A stretch of DNA of 11,681 nucleotides from Methanobacteriota archaeon (lineage in GTDB: Archaea; Thermoplasmatota; Thermoplasmata; RBG-16-68-12): contig VBLV01000051.1 in assembly GCA_005879045.1 (NCBI GenBank), positions 1-11,681 of the forward strand. Direction: 5' to 3'. The position numbers and the translations under genes are program-made. Positions 1,214 to 9,526 of this stretch are shown here, piece after piece (position 1 is the first letter of the stretch; each line of letters starts with the position of its first letter). The notes beneath the pieces are model-generated. The model saw only the letters and a list, made by a program, of their open reading frames with translations, was not told the DNA's origin and searched no databases.

Positions 1214-2986
1214 TCAGCGGAATCGGTTCCCGCAGAAGAAGCAGAACATGTTGTCCGCGCTGACCATCGTCCCGCAACTCGGGCAGCGCTTCTTGGCAGC
1301 CGTGGGCTGCACCACCGTCACCGGGGCAACCGGTTGGGCGGGTGGGATGGTCTGAACGGAGGTCGGCGGACTCGTGATCTGCGGCTCGATTCGCGGAGCG
1401 GCGGTTTGAACCGGAGGCGGGCCGGGTGGGGGCGCCGACGGCCGTACCGCTTGAACGTAGTAACTCGGCGGGTACAGCGTCTGCGGGCGGGCGAGTGCTC
1501 GACGGGCCCGGGCGGCGCGGCGCTGCGGGATGAACGCGACGACACCCGCCAGGACGAGGATGAACAACGCCAAATACAGTAGGTTCGAGGCGAGGAGTTG
1601 GTACAGGACGAAGAGGAAGTCGGGGACGCTCGAGGCCGTGACCGTATACTCGGGCGAGGAGAACGCGCTCCCGTTCACGGTCGCAACGACCTTGAAGTAC
1701 AGGGAGCCCGCGCCCGAGGGCATCGAGAAGCCGTTCGCCGTGTACGACTGGTGCGTCTGGCCCGACTGGGCCGCTGTTGAATTGCTCAGCCGTCCGGAGA
1801 CGGTTCCCCATACGACATGGGTGTCGGTCACGGAGAGCCCGGTCGGCCCGAGGATCGACCACGACACGCCGAACGTCGAACTGCTCGAGACCGACCGGGG
1901 GAATGAGTTCACCGAGATGAACGGTTGGCTCAGGGCATTGATCGCGTTCCAGACGTTCACGACGCCCCAGCCATAGTTCGTATTGTAGCCGCTGCCTACC
2001 GGCTGGACGGCCGTGCTGTTGAGGATGTTCCAGAGCTCGACGTTGGTCAGGCTCGGGTCGACGGACAGAAGCAGCGCGGCGGCGCCGCTCACGAAGGGCG
2101 TGGAGAAGGAGGTCCCTTGGAGGTAGTGGACGTTGTTTTGCTGGTTGTTGCCTCCGTTCAGCGTGACGATCCGGGTCCCCGGCGCGGAGATGTCCAGCCC
2201 GCTCCCATAGTTCGAGAAGGAGGCCCGACGCCCCGATTCATCGATCGCCGCAACGGATACGACGTTCGGAAGTCGTGCCGGGTAGTCGAGCGTCCCGACT
2301 CCGGCGTTCCCCGCGGCCGCGACGATGAGCGCGCCCTTGGACCACGCATAATTGACGGCGAGTTGGATGTCTGTCGGACCGATGAACGTCTCATTGGTCC
2401 CGAGGGAGAGGTTGATCACACGGGCGCCGCGGTCGGCGGCCCAGCGGATCGCCTGCGAGGTGTTGAACGAGGAACCTTGACCGTTGGGGCCCAGGGCCCG
2501 GACCGCGATGACGCTGATCTGGGCGGTGCCCGCGATTCCCTGACCGTTGTCCGTGATCGCGGCGATGACGCCGGCCACGCCCGTCCCATGGTAGACCTGT
2601 CCCGACGGGTCGACGTCCATCGGGTTCGAGTCGCCATCGACGAAGTCATGCCCATGCGTGCCGTCCGCCGAGTTCGTCCACATGTTCGCTTGAATGTCGG
2701 GCTGGGTCCACCAGACGCCGGTGTCGACGACGGCCACGAGGATCGAGCGGTCCCCGGGAGTCACGCTCCAGGCATTCGGAGCCCCAATCGATTGGAGGCC
2801 CCATTGGTCCACGAAGAACGGATCGCTGGGAGGGCCGAGCTCCGCGTGGACGGGGAAGTTCGTCACGATGGCGGCGGCCGTCGAAGTCGAGCCCGCCGCG
2901 GCGCCGGACACAAAGGAGCCGGCCATGACGAGGACCGCCATGAGAGCGGCAAGCCGCCGGGCGAGGGCGCTCAATCGGGCCGACAA
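1214..2986 (-). CDS. Secreted, membrane-anchored S8 subtilisin-family protease with C-terminal zinc ribbon
   Basis: This 590-residue serine endopeptidase should act outside the cell on peptides or proteins. Residues 1-31 form a signal peptide with an arginine-containing start and hydrophobic core. The S8 domain (about 55-350) has the full triad: D88 in VAVVDTG, H133 in HGTGVAG and S293 in GTSFSTP, plus oxyanion N227 in AAAGN. A Ser/Thr/Val-rich beta-sandwich-like region (about 355-450) follows, then one membrane helix (about 457-485), an RRAARARR stop-transfer cluster, a long Pro/Gln-rich linker (about 500-562) and a CxxC...CxxC zinc ribbon (C568, C571, C582, C585). Predicted topology puts the protease outside and the ribbon in the cytoplasm. 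There is no obvious separate propeptide domain. The start is TTG: a GGAGG lies 10 bases upstream and it completes the signal peptide. ATG at 2941 is possible but loses the positive N-region. The hydrolase gene upstream is in the same direction, but a separate promoter seems present. Confidence 0.93.
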   Translation of the reverse strand: MSARLSALARRLAALMAVLVMAGSFVSGAAAGSTSTAAAIVTNFPVHAELGPPSDPFFVDQWGLQSIGAPNAWSVTPGDRSILVAVVDTGVWWTQPDIQANMWTNSADGTHGHDFVDGDSNPMDVDPSGQVYHGTGVAGVIAAITDNGQGIAGTAQISVIAVRALGPNGQGSSFNTSQAIRWAADRGARVINLSLGTNETFIGPTDIQLAVNYAWSKGALIVAAAGNAGVGTLDYPARLPNVVSVAAIDESGRRASFSNYGSGLDISAPGTRIVTLNGGNNQQNNVHYLQGTSFSTPFVSGAAALLLSVDPSLTNVELWNILNSTAVQPVGSGYNTNYGWGVVNVWNAINALSQPFISVNSFPRSVSSSSTFGVSWSILGPTGLSVTDTHVVWGTVSGRLSNSTAAQSGQTHQSYTANGFSMPSGAGSLYFKVVATVNGSAFSSPEYTVTASSVPDFLFVLYQLLASNLLYLALFILVLAGVVAFIPQRRAARARRALARPQTLYPPSYYVQAVRPSAPPPGPPPVQTAAPRIEPQITSPPTSVQTIPPAQPVAPVTVVQPTAAKKRCPSCGTMVSADNMFCFFCGNRFR

Positions 2987-3090: not shown

Positions 3091-3720
3091 TCAGAGGCGT
3101 TTCGCCAGTTCGGCGATCTTTGCACTGGCGCCGCCCTTGATGGGGGCCCCATGCCCCATGACGAGGTTCTCGAAATGGAACGTCGCGAGTTTCTTGATTG
3201 ACTGGCGATGCTGCTTCGGGTCCACGTTGTACTTGTCCGGCATCGGCGCCAGGCCGCCCTCGTTGTTCAACGCGTCGCCGGCGATGCACAGCGAACGGGT
3301 CTCGTCGAGCAGCGACATGCTCCCGCGGGTGTGGCCGGGCGTGAGGATGACGCGGAGGCCATCGTGCGTTTGCCCGTCATCCAGCGGGACGTCCACCGGC
3401 GTGCCCGGGTGCGATTGGGGGCCCGACGGACCATCGTACACGCGTTTGCGGGAGATGAAGTCCGCTTCGACCCGGGAGGACGCCACCTTTGCCGGCGACC
3501 CGTGCTTGATCGCCGCGAGCCCGTTCACGTGATCCGGATGCGTGTGGGTGATGAAGATCGTCGAGAGGTCTCTCGGCTTCACTTTGATCTTCGCGAGGTA
3601 GTCGAGGATTTTCCCGCCGTCGGCGTCCGAGGACGTGTCGATGAGGACGAGGCGGTCGTCGACGAGCAAGGTGGTGGTCGCATACGTCTCGATGACATGC
3701 ACGCCTTTCAGGAGTTCCAT
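3091..3720 (-). CDS. Metallo-beta-lactamase-fold hydrolase
   Basis: This 209-residue cytosolic protein is of the glyoxalase II-like MBL superfamily, which hydrolyses ester, thioester or similar bonds with two metal ions. The ligand set is complete: THTHPDH (H59, H61, D63, H64), H130 in TPGHTRGS, D149 in IAGD and H190 in GHG. The length is normal for a single-domain member, with no signal peptide and no extra RNase or flavodiiron domain, so the substrate cannot be named. The ATG at 3720 is followed directly by the first beta strands (VHVIETYATTTLLV). No good Shine-Dalgarno sequence precedes it, and a TATA-like box about 35 bases upstream implies a very short leader. It is divergent from the dipeptidase gene across a 136-base gap and lies 104 bases upstream of the protease; no functional link is evident. 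Confidence 0.9.
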   Translation of the reverse strand: MELLKGVHVIETYATTTLLVDDRLVLIDTSSDADGGKILDYLAKIKVKPRDLSTIFITHTHPDHVNGLAAIKHGSPAKVASSRVEADFISRKRVYDGPSGPQSHPGTPVDVPLDDGQTHDGLRVILTPGHTRGSMSLLDETRSLCIAGDALNNEGGLAPMPDKYNVDPKQHRQSIKKLATFHFENLVMGHGAPIKGGASAKIAELAKRL

Positions 3721-3856: not shown

Positions 3857-5221
3857 GTGCGTGGATTGGCCCTCACGGATGTCCTGGCCCGTGTTGAAGC
3901 GGACGCGGGGAAGGCCTTGGAGATTCTCAAGGAGTACGTTCGATTTCCCACGATCTCGGCGCACAAGCGGGCCCAACCGGAGACCGCTGCCTTCGTCCGG
4001 CGTCTCTTGGCCGAGAACGGTTTCGAGGCGCGCGAATATCCGACGGATGGCGGACCGAACGTCGTCTTCGGCCAGATGATCGTCGACGAGCGCAGGCCGA
4101 CGTTGCTCATGTACCAGCATTACGACGTCCAACCCGTCGACCCGCTGAACGAATGGAAGCGCGATCCGTTCGACCCTGCGATCGAAGAGGGCAAGTTCTG
4201 GGGCCGCGGTTGCGCGGATACGAAGGGCAACCTGATCATGCAGATCCTCGCGGTCCAAGCCTGGAATGGCGTCGAAGGCCGGCCGCCGATCAACCTGAAG
4301 TTCGTGGTCGAGGGCGAGGAGGAGGTCGGCAGTCCCCACTTTGGCTCCTTCGTCCGTGCGAACCAGGACATCCTGCACGCGGACGGCGCGACGATCGAGG
4401 GCGGCGACCATCTCCACGAGGGAACTCCGAAAATTGAGCTCGGATGCAAAGGCATCCTGTACGTCGAGATGACCAGCCGCACGGCGAAGGTCGACCAGCA
4501 TTCGTCGTACGCGGCAATCGCTCCGAATCCGGCGTGGCGGCTCATCCACGCGCTCATGACCCTTCGAGACGCGAAGGGCCGGATCAAGGTGCCCGGGTGG
4601 TACAAGGACGCGCGCCGTCCGACCGCCCGCGAGCTGCGCTACTTGCAAGCGAGCGCGTTCAAGGCCGATGCGCTGAAAGAATTCTGGGGCGTCTCCGAGT
4701 TCGTCGGGGGCGGGAACGACTTCGAGGTGCTCCGCCGCCTCATCTATTCCCCGACGTGCACGATCTGCGGCTTCGTGAGCGGCTACATCGAACAGGGCAC
4801 GAAGACGGTGAATCCCGCCGTGGCCAAGGCGAAGATCGACTTCCGCCTCGTGCCGAACATGAAGCAGGCGACCCAGTTCGAAAAGCTCCGGGATCATTTG
4901 ATCGCGAAAGGCTTCGGGGACATCGAACTCTCTCCGGCGAAAGAGGCCTTGGAGGCGGCTGCGATTTCGCTGAGCGCTCGAGTCGTCAAAGCCGCGATCA
5001 AGGGATCGGTCGACGCATACGGACGCGAGCCGGAAGTGTGGCCGTGGTCTGCCGGGGCTTCGGCCCACGGATTCTTCAACGAGGTCGTCGGCGTGCCCTC
5101 GATCTCAGGGCCCGGTGTCTCATACGACGGGTCGAACTATCACGCGCCGAACGAACATTTCCGCATGGAAGACTTCGTTGGCGGCGCGAAGCACATGGCC
5201 GCGATGATGGCTCGTCTCTGA
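3857..5221 (+). CDS. M20-family zinc metallodipeptidase (ArgE/CNDP-like)
   Basis: This 454-residue cytosolic di-zinc aminoacyl-dipeptidase should cleave dipeptides or N-acyl amino acids during peptide turnover. Family landmarks appear in order: H88 and D90 in YQHYDVQP, D121 in GRGCADTKG, the catalytic/metal pair E155-E156 in VEGEEEVGS, a dimerisation-domain histidine H215 in KVDQHSS following GCKGILYVEM, and H429 in NYHAPNEH near the end. Length and the late HAPNEH motif match CNDP/DapE-like dipeptidases. The reading frame stays open upstream to 3635, but that part would overlap the hydrolase gene and looks non-protein-like (Arg/Ser-rich). GTG 3857 fits the TATA-like box spacing; TTG 3866 is a near alternative. 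A repeat-rich 102-base gap separates it from the exported protein gene. Confidence 0.92.
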   Translation: MRGLALTDVLARVEADAGKALEILKEYVRFPTISAHKRAQPETAAFVRRLLAENGFEAREYPTDGGPNVVFGQMIVDERRPTLLMYQHYDVQPVDPLNEWKRDPFDPAIEEGKFWGRGCADTKGNLIMQILAVQAWNGVEGRPPINLKFVVEGEEEVGSPHFGSFVRANQDILHADGATIEGGDHLHEGTPKIELGCKGILYVEMTSRTAKVDQHSSYAAIAPNPAWRLIHALMTLRDAKGRIKVPGWYKDARRPTARELRYLQASAFKADALKEFWGVSEFVGGGNDFEVLRRLIYSPTCTICGFVSGYIEQGTKTVNPAVAKAKIDFRLVPNMKQATQFEKLRDHLIAKGFGDIELSPAKEALEAAAISLSARVVKAAIKGSVDAYGREPEVWPWSAGASAHGFFNEVVGVPSISGPGVSYDGSNYHAPNEHFRMEDFVGGAKHMAAMMARL

Positions 5222-5817: not shown

Positions 5818-6153
5818 GTGTCCTTTAACGCTCCGACATCTGTGAGCGCGGCACTCCGACAGCTTCTGTGGTATCTGATCGCAGGAACCCGAGGGGGCGT
5901 CAACCGAGCGAGAATCATCGAGGCGTTGCGCGAACGGCCTTACAACGCAAACCAGCTCAGCGCGGCGCTCGGACTCGATTACCGGACGGTCCGACATCAC
6001 TTGGATCTCCTGCAGAAGAATGGTCTGATTACGCGCCCCACCGGGGACGCCTACGCCTCCCCTTATTTCCTGTCGCCCTATCTCGAAGGGAGCTACGCGA
6101 TCTTCGAGGAAATTCGGAAGAGGCTCAAGCCGCCGGGCGGGCGATTCGGGTGA
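5818..6153 (+). CDS. Winged helix-turn-helix transcriptional regulator
   Basis: This 111-residue cytosolic DNA-binding protein has an ArsR/MarR-like winged helix: helix 1 (about 13-23, ALRQLLWYLIA), a conserved-looking TRGGVNRARI turn and helix (24-38), PYNANQLSAALG (41-52) as the positioning helix, DYRTVRHHLDLLQKNG (54-69) as the recognition helix, and a wing with paired aromatics (ITRPTGDAYASPYF, 71-84). The tail ends in FEEIRKRLKPPG. From recall, very similar proteins with a TRGG motif and ANQLAExLGLDYxTVRHHL helix are common in Thermoplasmata and other Euryarchaeota, often beside a small membrane protein, as here. No metal-binding cysteine site is present. GTG 5818 gives the longest frame; GTG 5842, 8 codons later, fits the nearer TATA-like box and the usual short N-terminus. 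The inverted repeats upstream are candidate self-operators. Confidence 0.88.
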   Translation: MSFNAPTSVSAALRQLLWYLIAGTRGGVNRARIIEALRERPYNANQLSAALGLDYRTVRHHLDLLQKNGLITRPTGDAYASPYFLSPYLEGSYAIFEEIRKRLKPPGGRFG

Positions 6154-6581: not shown

Positions 6582-7382
6582 ATGGCGGGAGAGGAACTCA
6601 TCCTTGCGGCGGTACTTGCAATCATCTTGGTGCTCGTGATCTTGCGGGCCGCGATCAAGGTCGTGCGGGAGTACGAGCGCCTGGTGATCTTCCGTCTCGG
6701 GCGACTCTTTCCCACCCCGAAAGGGCCGGGGCTCACGGTGATCATCCCGATCTTCGATCGCCGGGTCCTGATCGACCTCCGGACCGTCGCGTTCGATGTG
6801 CCCCGGCAGCGCGTCGTGAGCCGCGACAACGTGTCCGTCGAAGTTGACGCCGTCGTGTACTATCGGGTCTACGATCCGCTGAAGGCGGTGACGGAGGTCC
6901 AGAACTACATTCAGGCGACGAACCTCCTCGCCCAGACGACCCTGCGGGACGTCCTCGGCCAGGTCGAGCTCGATGAGCTCCTCTCGAAGCGCGAGGAGTT
7001 GAGCAAGAGAATCCAGATCCTCCTGGACACCTCGACGGAGCCGTGGGGAATCAAGGTCTCCGCGGTCACCCTGCGGGACGTCTCGCTGCCGGACACGATG
7101 GTCCGAGCGATCGCGAAGCAGGCCGAGGCCGAGCGCGAGCGTCGCTCGCGGGTCATCATGGCCGAAGGCGAATTCCAGGCCGCGGAGAAGATGCGGGAAG
7201 CCGCCATGCTCTACGGCTCCGCGCCGTCCGCGATGCGCCTGCGGGAGCTGCAGACCCTCACGGAGATTGCGCGGGAGAAGAACATGATCGTCGTCACGAA
7301 TACCACCGCGGCCGGGGACATCACGGGCGAGGTCGCGTCCCTGACGGCCGCCCTCGCGAGGAAAGGGGACAAGAAAGAGTGA
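6582..7382 (+). CDS. SPFH/band-7 stomatin-slipin family membrane protein
   Basis: This 266-residue protein has a single N-terminal membrane helix (about 5-26) followed by a band-7 domain: REYERLVIFRLGR (29-41), the GPGL...IPIFDR segment (48-60), DLRTVAFDVPRQ (65-76), SRDNVSVEVDAVVYYRV (80-96) and DVLGQVELDELLSKR (123-137). A charged coiled-coil helix (about 172-235, rich in Ala, Glu and Arg) and a short basic tail complete it. Stomatin-like proteins oligomerise into membrane microdomain scaffolds, and in archaea the partner NfeD protease can cleave the C-terminal region of its stomatin, as shown for PH1511/PH1510 of Pyrococcus horikoshii. The nfeD gene here overlaps the stop codon by four bases, supporting one operon and a joint membrane quality-control role. 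Length and domain order are normal for archaeal slipins. Confidence 0.93.
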   Translation: MAGEELILAAVLAIILVLVILRAAIKVVREYERLVIFRLGRLFPTPKGPGLTVIIPIFDRRVLIDLRTVAFDVPRQRVVSRDNVSVEVDAVVYYRVYDPLKAVTEVQNYIQATNLLAQTTLRDVLGQVELDELLSKREELSKRIQILLDTSTEPWGIKVSAVTLRDVSLPDTMVRAIAKQAEAERERRSRVIMAEGEFQAAEKMREAAMLYGSAPSAMRLRELQTLTEIAREKNMIVVTNTTAAGDITGEVASLTAALARKGDKKE

Positions 7383-8788
7383 GCTCGAGTTTGGCGAGAT
7401 GGGCCCGCGTCGGCCTGATCTTGGCGTTCGCGACGATCGTCCTCGCCGCCGCGCTACCAGCGGCCCGAGCCCAGGGGCCGCGGATCCTCCTGGCCGTCGT
7501 CGATGGTGCGATCGACCGTTCCACGGTGGACTATCTCCAGGAGGCAATCGACGAGGCCCGCGGCGGGGGCTACGCGGCCCTCATGATCCGCTTCGACACG
7601 CCCGGGGGCGGGCTCGCCGAGACGGTGGCCCTCGCGGAGATGTTCAACAACGCCCGGGACGTGCCGATCCTCGGATGGGTCGGGCCGGTCGGCGCGCACG
7701 CGTGGAGCGCGGGGACGATCCTGCTCGTGTCAACGGACCTCGCGGCAATGGCCCCCGGCACGACGATCGGGTCGGTTCAACCCGTGGAGGTCGGTCCGGG
7801 CGGGATCGTGCCGGTCACAGACCCGAAGATCATCAACGCGGTGGTGACCGCGATCTACGAGGAGCTCGCTCTCCACAACCGCAGCACGGACCTCGCGGCG
7901 CGGTTCGTGGTCGACAACCTGAACCTCAATGCGACGCAGGCGCAGAGCCTCCGAGCGACGGAGCTGGTCGCCGCGAGTCCGCAGGAATTTGCGAGCCTGG
8001 CGGACGGACGCCGGGTGGTCGTGCAGAGCAACGCGACCGTGTACAAGGACTTCACCCTCCACACCGCCGGCGCCGAGATTGTGACGTTCAGCTCGTCCGC
8101 TCGAGTGCGACTCCTCGAAATCCTGTCGGACCCACTCGTTGCGTCCCTCCTGCTCATCCTCGGGATCTATCTCGTGATCTTCGGCATCTCCGCGCCGGGC
8201 CACGGGGCCGAGATCGCCGGGATCATCATCCTCCTCTTGGCCCTCATCGGGCTCGGATTCAGCGTCGATCCGATCGCCCTCCTGCTGTTCATCGTCGGAG
8301 TCATCCTGATCATCATCGAGATCAAGACGCCCGGATTCGGCGTGTTCGGGATCGGCGGGATCATCGCGATCGTCTTGGCGGCGGCGTTCCTCGCACCGTT
8401 GCGACCGCCGCGGTTCGTCGTCTCGCCGGACTATCAGATTTTCTTCCTAGCCTCCTTCCTTATCCCGACGGGTTTCTTCGGCGGATTCCTGTTGTTCGCG
8501 ATGTTCAAGGTGCAGCAAATCCGGCGCCGCGCTCCGATTGTTGGGATGATGATTGGGCAACCCGCGACCGTGGTCGAGGGCCTCCGCCCCGGGGAGAAGG
8601 GCTACGTGCGGCACCGCGGGGAGCTCTGGCAGGCGACGGCGGCCGAGACCCTCTCGGCCGAGTCCAAAGTCTACATCCAAGGGGTTGACGGCATCGTCCT
8701 CCGAGTGTCGTCCGCGCCGCCGCCCGCGCCAGCATCCAGTCTTCTGCGTCGCCGCTTCGCGTTCCTCCTCCGTCGGAAAGCCGCGTGA
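7379..8788 (+). CDS. Long-form NfeD: ClpP-class membrane serine protease
   Basis: This 469-residue intramembrane-associated protease is the partner of the SPFH protein. Domain order: signal peptide (1-32, ending AARAQ), ClpP-like domain (about 34-235), four to five membrane helices (about 253-272, 276-295, 297-316, 322-341 and 353-378), then a soluble OB-fold NfeD domain (about 388-445). In the protease domain DTPGGG (73-78) is followed by GAHAWSAGT, whose S110 matches the nucleophile of Pyrococcus PH1510 (S97), and by DPKIINA, whose K150 matches its catalytic K138, so it should be active with a Ser/Lys dyad. AMAPGTTIGS (123-132) is typical. The start is GTG 7379, overlapping the SPFH stop as GTGA; the frame is open further upstream but that would run inside the SPFH gene. 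The last 25 residues are proline- then arginine-rich, an unusual basic tail. Confidence 0.93.
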   Translation: MSSSLARWARVGLILAFATIVLAAALPAARAQGPRILLAVVDGAIDRSTVDYLQEAIDEARGGGYAALMIRFDTPGGGLAETVALAEMFNNARDVPILGWVGPVGAHAWSAGTILLVSTDLAAMAPGTTIGSVQPVEVGPGGIVPVTDPKIINAVVTAIYEELALHNRSTDLAARFVVDNLNLNATQAQSLRATELVAASPQEFASLADGRRVVVQSNATVYKDFTLHTAGAEIVTFSSSARVRLLEILSDPLVASLLLILGIYLVIFGISAPGHGAEIAGIIILLLALIGLGFSVDPIALLLFIVGVILIIIEIKTPGFGVFGIGGIIAIVLAAAFLAPLRPPRFVVSPDYQIFFLASFLIPTGFFGGFLLFAMFKVQQIRRRAPIVGMMIGQPATVVEGLRPGEKGYVRHRGELWQATAAETLSAESKVYIQGVDGIVLRVSSAPPPAPASSLLRRRFAFLLRRKAA

Positions 8789-8830: not shown

Positions 8831-9151
8831 ATGGACACGGACGTCAATCTGTGCAAGATCGACGACGTCCCGGACGGCGGGAAGAAGCACTTCGAGATCA
8901 TGGGGTACGACATCCTCGTGGTGCGATTGGGTGACCGCTTCTTTTGCGTCGATGCCGCGTGCACGTACAAGTGGGCGATGCTCACCGACGGCCTGGTGGA
9001 CCGCGAGAAGCTTTTGATCACATGCAAGGACTGCAACGGTTCGTGGGATCTCCAGACGGGCCAGCCGAAGGAACTGCCCGCGAAGTTCCCCCTTACCGCC
9101 TACCGGATCGAATCGGTCGCGGACGATCTGATCGTCACGTTCACGTATTGA
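8831..9151 (+). CDS. Rieske-fold protein with histidine ligands replaced (four-cysteine variant)
   Basis: This 106-residue soluble protein has a Rieske-ferredoxin layout: YDILVVRLGDRFFCVDAAC strands, CTYKWAMLTDG (44-54) in place of the usual C-x-H-x-x-x-x-L-x-x-G box, and TCKDCNGSWDLQTG (64-77) in place of C-x-x-H-x-x-x-F-D-L-x-T-G. The anchors LTDG and WDLQTG keep the spacing exact, so the first cluster histidine is Y46 and the second is C68. The remaining candidate ligands are C39, C44, C65 and C68. Rieske [2Fe-2S] centres need two Cys and two His, so this protein cannot hold a normal one. It might bind a four-Cys [2Fe-2S] cluster or zinc, or use C65-x-x-C68 as a redox pair. There is no signal peptide or oxygenase domain. 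It lies alone, 42 bases after nfeD with its own TATA-like box. Fold confidence is high; cofactor is unknown. Confidence 0.85.
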   Translation: MDTDVNLCKIDDVPDGGKKHFEIMGYDILVVRLGDRFFCVDAACTYKWAMLTDGLVDREKLLITCKDCNGSWDLQTGQPKELPAKFPLTAYRIESVADDLIVTFTY

Positions 9152-9189: not shown

Positions 9190-9295
9190 TGCGCGCGGTT
9201 CCTCGCGACGGCCGTCCTCCAATTCCCGTGACGAACCGAGTCGGCCCGTTCGGCCTTGGCCCGCGTTCTCATCGAGCGTTGAGGCGGTGGCGACG

Positions 9296-9526
9296 ATGGC
9301 CGACGACAAGGACCAGCAGTTCACGCGGATGTGGAACGAAGAGAACAAGTCGAAGCGAGCGAAGTTCCGGAACCTCATGAAGGCGAAGCTCGATGTGCTC
9401 CACGTCGAGGTGACGGAAGAAAACGCGCGCGCCTTCTGGAACGGCCGGCTCGCGGTTCGCCAGCCCGAGCGGATTTATCAGATGCCTGAACGGCCCGAAA
9501 GCCGAAGGCCTCCAAGACGCCGTTGA
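9296..9526 (+). CDS. Small basic hypothetical protein
   Basis: This frame encodes 76 residues from ATG 9296 (79 from GTG 9287). It is strongly charged: an acidic/lysine-rich helical first half (DDKDQQFTRMWNEENKSKRAK), an LMKAKLDVLHVEVTEENARAFWNGRL middle with a helix-strand-helix look, and an Arg/Pro-rich end (PESRRPPRRR). There are no cysteines, signal peptide or membrane segments. I do not recognise it. Support comes from a GAGGCGG ribosome-binding-like site 9-15 bases before ATG 9296, non-random composition and the terminator-like hairpins right after the stop. The basic tail suggests nucleic-acid contact, and the SSB-type gene faces it on the opposite strand, but no function is claimed. 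Confidence 0.55.
   Translation: MADDKDQQFTRMWNEENKSKRAKFRNLMKAKLDVLHVEVTEENARAFWNGRLAVRQPERIYQMPERPESRRPPRRR

Follow-up and report, generated by a model that had tools for sequence, protein, structure and literature searches.

A histidine-less Rieske-fold protein with three conserved loop cysteines, and its candidate metal site, in archaea of the order RBG-16-68-12

The window, that is, the whole stretch of DNA analysed here, comprises 11,681 nucleotides of contig VBLV01000051.1 (assembly GCA_005879045.1) from an archaeon of the order RBG-16-68-12, and it carries the gene of a small Rieske-fold protein, P0001, from which both histidine ligands of the Rieske cluster are absent (Table 1). P0001 scores above the curated PF00355 cut-off, which places it in the Rieske domain superfamily, and the Rieske fold is also predicted for it. 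Its two cluster loops read C-T-Y and C-K-D-C, and so depart from the C-x-H and C-x2-H of a Rieske [2Fe-2S] ferredoxin. Tyr46 and Cys68 stand in the places of the two His ligands, as an earlier note, made from the DNA letters, had read them. P0001 also falls below the NCBIfam cut-offs for the dioxygenase ferredoxins HcaC, MocE and AndAb (NF007422, 54.6 vs 113; TIGR02377, 41.6 vs 136.15; NF041683, 41.1 vs 150; NF042948, 38.4 vs 150), and it narrowly misses the NirD-like family Rieske_2 (PF13806, 26.4 bits vs a cut-off of 27). Of the CxxC motifs that a rubredoxin-like protein would have in both loops, it possesses the one in box 2 and lacks the one in box 1. P0001 is a real and conserved protein with an unusual ligand change on a known fold, and the change is of a kind for which natural intermediates and convergent repeats are present, as described below.

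Table 1. Coordinates of the Rieske-fold gene, its key codons and the other genes discussed in the window.
Feature	Position	Strand	Remark
Rieske-fold protein P0001, 106 aa	8831..9151	+	His-less, three-cysteine cluster loops
Box 1 core, C44-T45-Y46	8960..8968	+	Tyr46 at the place of the first His ligand
Box 2 core, C65-K-D-C68	9023..9034	+	Cys68 at the place of the second His ligand
C39 codon	8945..8947	+	in predicted strand 36-41; outside the conserved site
C8 codon	8852..8854	+	conserved, not tied to His loss
NfeD protein, membrane and partner-binding domains	7376..8788	+	start predicted; stop 42 nt before the Rieske start
SPFH/Band 7 protein	6582..7382	+	upstream of NfeD
79-aa protein	9287..9526	+	downstream of the Rieske gene, same strand
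ArsR-type winged-helix protein	5818-6153	+	
Subtilisin-like S8 protease	1214-2986	-	
Metallo-beta-lactamase-fold hydrolase	3091-3720	-	

The window's own genome and 60 relatives (61 genomes) were searched for this family. Matches were found in 28, some of which hold only canonical-type paralogues, and those relatives that bear names are metagenome-assembled genomes of archaea (Euryarchaeota isolates EA_x, RBG_19FT_COMBO_69_17 and a Thermoplasmata archaeon). Codon-by-codon reading of the window-clade loci yielded 21 complete ones, 17 from the window's genus (its own locus counted), three from a second genus of the same family (g2) and one from another family of the same order (f5); locus L020, cut by a contig end, was excluded. 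C8, C44, C65 and C68 are present in all 21, which bears out the suggestion of a conserved Cys in place of the second His, and C39 is present in 14, with Gly, Ala or Thr in the other seven. The database set holds 51 window-clade proteins, P0001 included, 45 of which span at least 100 positions. In these 45 near-full-length rows C44, C65 and C68 each occur 44 times, the exceptions being P0040, with Gly in place of C44, and P0047, whose sequence continues into that of the 79-aa protein encoded downstream. When these two broken rows are dropped, all three cysteines are kept in 43 of 43.

Pairwise dN/dS values lie between 0.07 and 0.32 (NG86 values, 11 pairs), no internal stop occurs in the window-clade matches, and the clade is spread over two genera of one family and another family of the order. 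The dN/dS values and the conservation of the cysteines show that the window-type protein is maintained under purifying selection. That it is a decayed copy of a Rieske ferredoxin, heading to loss, is rejected on these grounds, even if the His positions of a sister clade, which vary among Tyr, Asn and Leu at the first and Gly, Asp and Cys at the second, could be taken for decay. The earlier note had held that close relatives with normal His residues would mark P0001 as such a copy; His-bearing relatives do exist in the sister clade, at 30-37% identity, but they are not close ones.

The sister group, whose members are archaeal proteins of 105 residues, was obtained by searching with a profile, its 30 rows being picked by Trp48 and Cys26. 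All 30 keep C44 and C65. At positions 46 and 68 they read HH in 13 cases, YG in 10 and NC in two, with LC, YC, HG, YD and HD once each; P0066 and P0076, which retain the first His with Gly or Asp at the second place, are useful intermediates for the order of loss. Outside the two clades every scorable row is CHCH (best 120 of 1071 profile matches). The tally over 205 aligned proteins gives 136 CHCH and 44 CYCC, P0204, P0049, P0050 and the broken P0041, P0047 and P0048 not being properly scorable. A search of 400 genomes of the class with the sister-clade profile, at E<=1e-25, gave three positives, namely two genomes of family f6 with the sister type and the f5 genome with the window type.

The history of the ligand positions was followed on a 60-row tree, for which 20 rows were taken from the window clade, 28 from the sister group and 12 from canonical proteins as outgroup. 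It was built with columns 46 and 68 left out, and in it the window clade is supported at 100/99 and the sister clade at 100/97. C44 and C65 are kept in 60 of 60 rows, with no change. Cys68 accounts for five changes (5-5 over 200 bootstrap trees). His68 is lost about four times on this tree; of the 200 bootstrap trees counted, 190 show four losses and 10 show three. P0056 (Leu/Cys), which is also found in genome G030, pairs with the canonical P0059 (98/81), and P0073 (Asn/Cys) groups with the canonical P0128 and P0130 (94/92). On the main tree three losses of His68 to Cys are unambiguous, in the window clade, in P0056 and in P0073; the fourth hinges on parsimony ties, which were broken alphabetically and so in favour of Cys, and the three are independent of this rule. 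Three of the four sister rows with C68 come from few sequences (P0073 from one contig, P0077 from two and P0058 from one short contig).

By the genetic code, a His-to-Cys replacement takes two base changes. Among simulated His replacements, those ending in Cys made up 0.7-0.8% under LG and 0.4-0.7% under WAG, and the chance of three such events by drift is near 4e-7, an after-the-fact estimate. Position 46 takes Tyr, Asn, Leu, Phe or Val, and looks like a site under relaxed constraint towards non-ligands. The recurrence of a rare His68-to-Cys change beside a variable position 46 makes Cys68 look selected and His46 dispensable, and the swap appears to have arisen several times in related archaea.

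The earlier note had proposed a site of four, C39, C44, C65 and C68, that would hold a ferredoxin-like [2Fe-2S] cluster or a Zn(Cys)4 centre within one chain. All four are present in P0001, C39 recurs in 42 of the 45 near-full-length close rows, and the 136 canonical database rows have, without exception, Ala or Val there. Conservation upheld three members of this set and not the fourth, since the seven loci with Gly, Ala or Thr at 39 otherwise keep the three cysteines. The earlier note had itself named homologues lacking C39 among the findings that would speak against its site, and in part these were seen. Moreover, C39 takes nine parsimony steps on the 60-row tree, against none for C44 and C65, lies inside a predicted strand, and is also found in the canonical, His-bearing CTH/CPWH ferredoxin of the window genome (contig C304 of G000, locus L107). 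Its variability, its parsimony steps and this paralogue led to its rejection as a ligand. A Cys at 39 is unusual, yet not strictly coupled to His loss, and a single-chain ferredoxin site of the classical four-Cys kind is very unlikely.

C8 was considered as a replacement. Of the 30 sister rows, 29 carry it, those with His among them, and the remaining one has a gap; 56 of the 136 canonical rows have it too. It is located in the first predicted strand. Aligned by way of P0203, it corresponds to Cys7 of T4MO ferredoxin, and that ferredoxin has been crystallised in an electron-transfer complex with Cys7 changed to Ser. As a fourth ligand C8 is accordingly unlikely. H20, which is His in the 21 loci, was discarded as a conserved ligand, being Ser or Pro in six of 43 database rows and His in 37. 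Position 47 is Lys or Gln in 43 of 43 database rows, Ser in the g2 and f5 loci, and Glu or Asp in two f6 loci. Given that C39 is variable and C8 is shared with canonical rows, what is peculiar to the His-less window clade is the trio C44, C65 and C68.

The loss of both His ligands together with the gain of a third cysteine probably means that the protein has either a metal site of another kind or a switch based on thiols. We give close to even odds (about 0.48) to a three-cysteine metal site whose fourth ligand is non-protein or variable. The centre bound by C44, C65 and C68 would be a [2Fe-2S] cluster, of low potential or labile, or else a mononuclear Fe or Zn site. Its fourth ligand would be a side chain that differs from member to member, or would come from a partner, a small molecule or water. 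The inner position would stay with C44 and C65, as in ordinary Rieske proteins, while C68 would stand in for His68. Such a site would lack proton coupling through histidine and the typical Rieske potential, and the protein may serve as a carrier working at low potential, as a labile-metal sensor or as a regulator that binds metal, and not as a donor to Rieske oxygenases. The window genome encodes a canonical CTH/CPWH Rieske ferredoxin and a Rieske oxygenase elsewhere, and the normal Rieske role is therefore filled by another gene.

Engineered and natural proteins indicate that such a site is possible. In the Sulfolobus solfataricus protein ARF, the H64C variant has a low-potential 3Cys/1His [2Fe-2S] cluster, the H44I/K45C/H64C variant forms a rubredoxin-like Fe(Cys)4 centre, and C42 and C61 are essential (PMC2946596). 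A three-Cys rubredoxin variant, C42A, assembles a [2Fe-2S] cluster (PMC2946596), and natural clusters held by three cysteines and water, substrate or an unknown ligand occur in aconitase, DHAD, RirA and RisR (PMC11138216). Given these precedents, it is chemically plausible that three cysteines form the site and the fourth position stays open. P0001 shares with the ARF variants the scaffold and the replacement of the second His by Cys, and its first His is replaced by a non-ligand as in the triple mutant; in contrast to them, it is natural, has no first-knuckle CxxC, offers three cysteines and not four and, unlike H64C, retains no His. At ARF positions 44, 45 and 64 it has a non-ligand, Lys and Cys, respectively. 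It is thereby one cysteine short of the rubredoxin design, and this exact set is absent from the ARF variants described in the excerpts of PMC2946596.

Several observations weigh against the three-cysteine site. In ARF, changing His44 to Cys blocks cluster insertion or assembly, and H44C/H64C is largely impaired (PMC2946596). A fourth conserved ligand was looked for at positions 8, 39 and 47 and at H20, and none was found, C8 being disfavoured by its strand and by its replaceable T4MO counterpart. Finally, position 68 is Gly or Asp in 13 of the 30 sister rows, all of which keep C44 and C65. A three-Cys site is impossible there; the two cysteines of these rows could be joined in a disulfide, contribute to a two-Cys site formed jointly by two chains, or be put to some other use.

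The same 13 rows, and the retention of C44 and C65 throughout the sister group, suit a metal-free thiol/disulfide switch, in which the cluster has been lost and the redox state is sensed or relayed through a reversible disulfide of C44 and C65, with C68 adding a CxxC pair. The equivalents of C44 and C65 bind the same iron in canonical Rieske proteins (PMC2946596, PMC11138216), so that a disulfide would be within reach, and the change of His68 to Cys creates a CxxC. A C44-C65 pair alone, however, leaves the recurrent Cys68 of separate lineages and its invariance in the window clade unexplained, and no thiol reductase is present among the window genes scanned. We regard this switch as somewhat unlikely, but as the main rival of the metal site.

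A further alternative is suggested by NirD, the NADH nitrite reductase small subunit (2jo6, 3c0d, 4aiv), which has, like P0001, a Rieske fold without the Rieske ligand set. P0001 would then be a cluster-less structural or binding protein, for instance a protein-protein adaptor to an NfeD/SPFH membrane complex, with cysteines that do no chemistry. In E. coli NirD, Asp and Ser stand where the two Cys would be, and Phe and Lys where the two His would be, whereas P0001 keeps both cysteines, which are fixed on the 60-row tree, and has gained a third. Since E. coli NirD, outside Rieske chemistry, has lost both, the cysteines of the window-type protein probably have some role. No nirB gene is found among the window genes scanned, and the NfeD link is not seen in the three g2 loci, the f5 locus or the two f6 loci. 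An adaptor of this sort is improbable.

In the window's genus the Rieske gene comes after SPFH and NfeD genes. NfeD lies directly upstream in seven of the 14 relatives' loci compared, all seven being among the eight loci of the window's genus; the gap to the Rieske gene is 42-53 nt between aligned ends in six, and the seventh has a shorter NfeD alignment. In the second genus (g2), an M16 peptidase gene stands 0.1-1.4 kb upstream in 3/3 loci. The 79-aa gene is found downstream, on the same strand and not always adjacent, in each of the 12 f1 and f5 loci and in neither of the two of family f6. It is present in 29 of the 120 genomes searched, families f14 and f26 included, and in the two f14 genomes that were searched with the Rieske protein it lies on contigs other than those with Rieske matches, the best of which are canonical; the protein has no Pfam or NCBIfam match. 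In the f6 genomes, the sister-clade Rieske-like gene (L072 of G026, 4660-4977; L073 of G030, 4064-4381) is convergent with a YjeF/NAD(P)H-hydrate repair open reading frame, with a 4-base overlap in both loci. Functional links to SPFH/NfeD, to the 79-aa protein and to YjeF were all considered, and none of them fixes a function; NfeD was seen beside the Rieske gene within one genus only, and the 79-aa gene occurs also in f14 and f26.

Other genes of the window were recorded as well. The ArsR-type winged-helix protein (HTH_5, 37.8 bits vs a cut-off of 22) precedes a 102-aa protein, membrane-like by eye, and the SPFH/NfeD genes, and is matched in four of the 14 relatives' loci. The subtilisin-like S8 protease ends in a zinc-ribbon-like tail (Zn_ribbon_3, 24.8 bits vs a cut-off of 27). 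For the metallo-beta-lactamase-fold hydrolase, the 25 listed of 49 NCBIfam matches are all far below their cut-offs, and no specific function or resistance role is therefore suggested. Scans for Rfam families and for tRNAs gave no hit in the window.

Among known systems, the dioxygenase Rieske ferredoxins (CarAc, 1vck and 3gce; the NDO ferredoxin, 2qpz; BphA3, 2e4p) differ from P0001 in carrying the His pair where it has Tyr46, Cys68 and thereby a third loop cysteine, and no oxygenase occurs among the window genes scanned. CPxC is the usual knuckle of rubredoxins and zinc ribbons. It is present in box 2 of all four sister rows with C68 (CPVCKG, CPQCGG, CPGCGG and CPECGG) and in six of the eight divergent window-clade loci listed (CPSC, CPAC, CPQC or CPGC); P0001 and most close relatives have CKDC, as do 41 of the 50 C68 rows, P0001 among them, and box 1 of P0001 has one cysteine and no CxxC knuckle. 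The loops of the Rieske cluster are reported to resemble those of rubredoxins and zinc ribbons in geometry (PMC2946596). Nevertheless, the CPxC likeness by itself is weak evidence, because the Pro is inherited from canonical CPxH. The fold of mitoNEET and of IscR is unrelated to that of Rieske proteins. Both have 3Cys/1His [2Fe-2S] clusters (PMC11138216), and three cysteine ligands and a possibly labile cluster would be shared with the site proposed for P0001, whose family differs in having no conserved His candidate, H20 included. Among open-licence papers, searches aimed at natural His-less, cysteine-bearing Rieske proteins and at cluster-less Rieske folds brought up no recognisable example, as judged by titles and abstract beginnings. 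The order itself, RBG-16-68-12 or Ca. Angelarchaeales, is described in PMC9038741, in the excerpts of which Rieske proteins are mentioned for complex III and for Nitrososphaerales.

A bolder proposal is that one archaeal lineage has rebuilt the Rieske loops, repeatedly and convergently, into a three-Cys, rubredoxin-knuckle-like site with an open coordination position, serving as a labile cluster, a metal sensor or a site shared tip to tip. It would be nature's parallel to the ligand swaps engineered in ARF. In the last case, the exposed tips of two chains, with C44, C65 and perhaps C68, could come together around a cluster or zinc held in common, and the persistence of C44 and C65 in the sister branch without C68 would be accounted for. 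We put this forward tentatively, as somewhat unlikely.

The Cys2His2 set defines Rieske chemistry, with its high potential and proton coupling. Engineering has shown which swaps the scaffold tolerates, and the window and sister groups provide a natural series, consisting of canonical, His/Gly, His/Asp, Asn/Cys, Leu/Cys, Tyr/Cys, Phe/Cys, Val/Cys, Tyr/Gly and Tyr/Asp forms, that bears on how the Rieske fold changes its cluster type or loses its cluster. For these archaea, annotations as 'Rieske ferredoxin' may be wrong as to both cofactor and potential.
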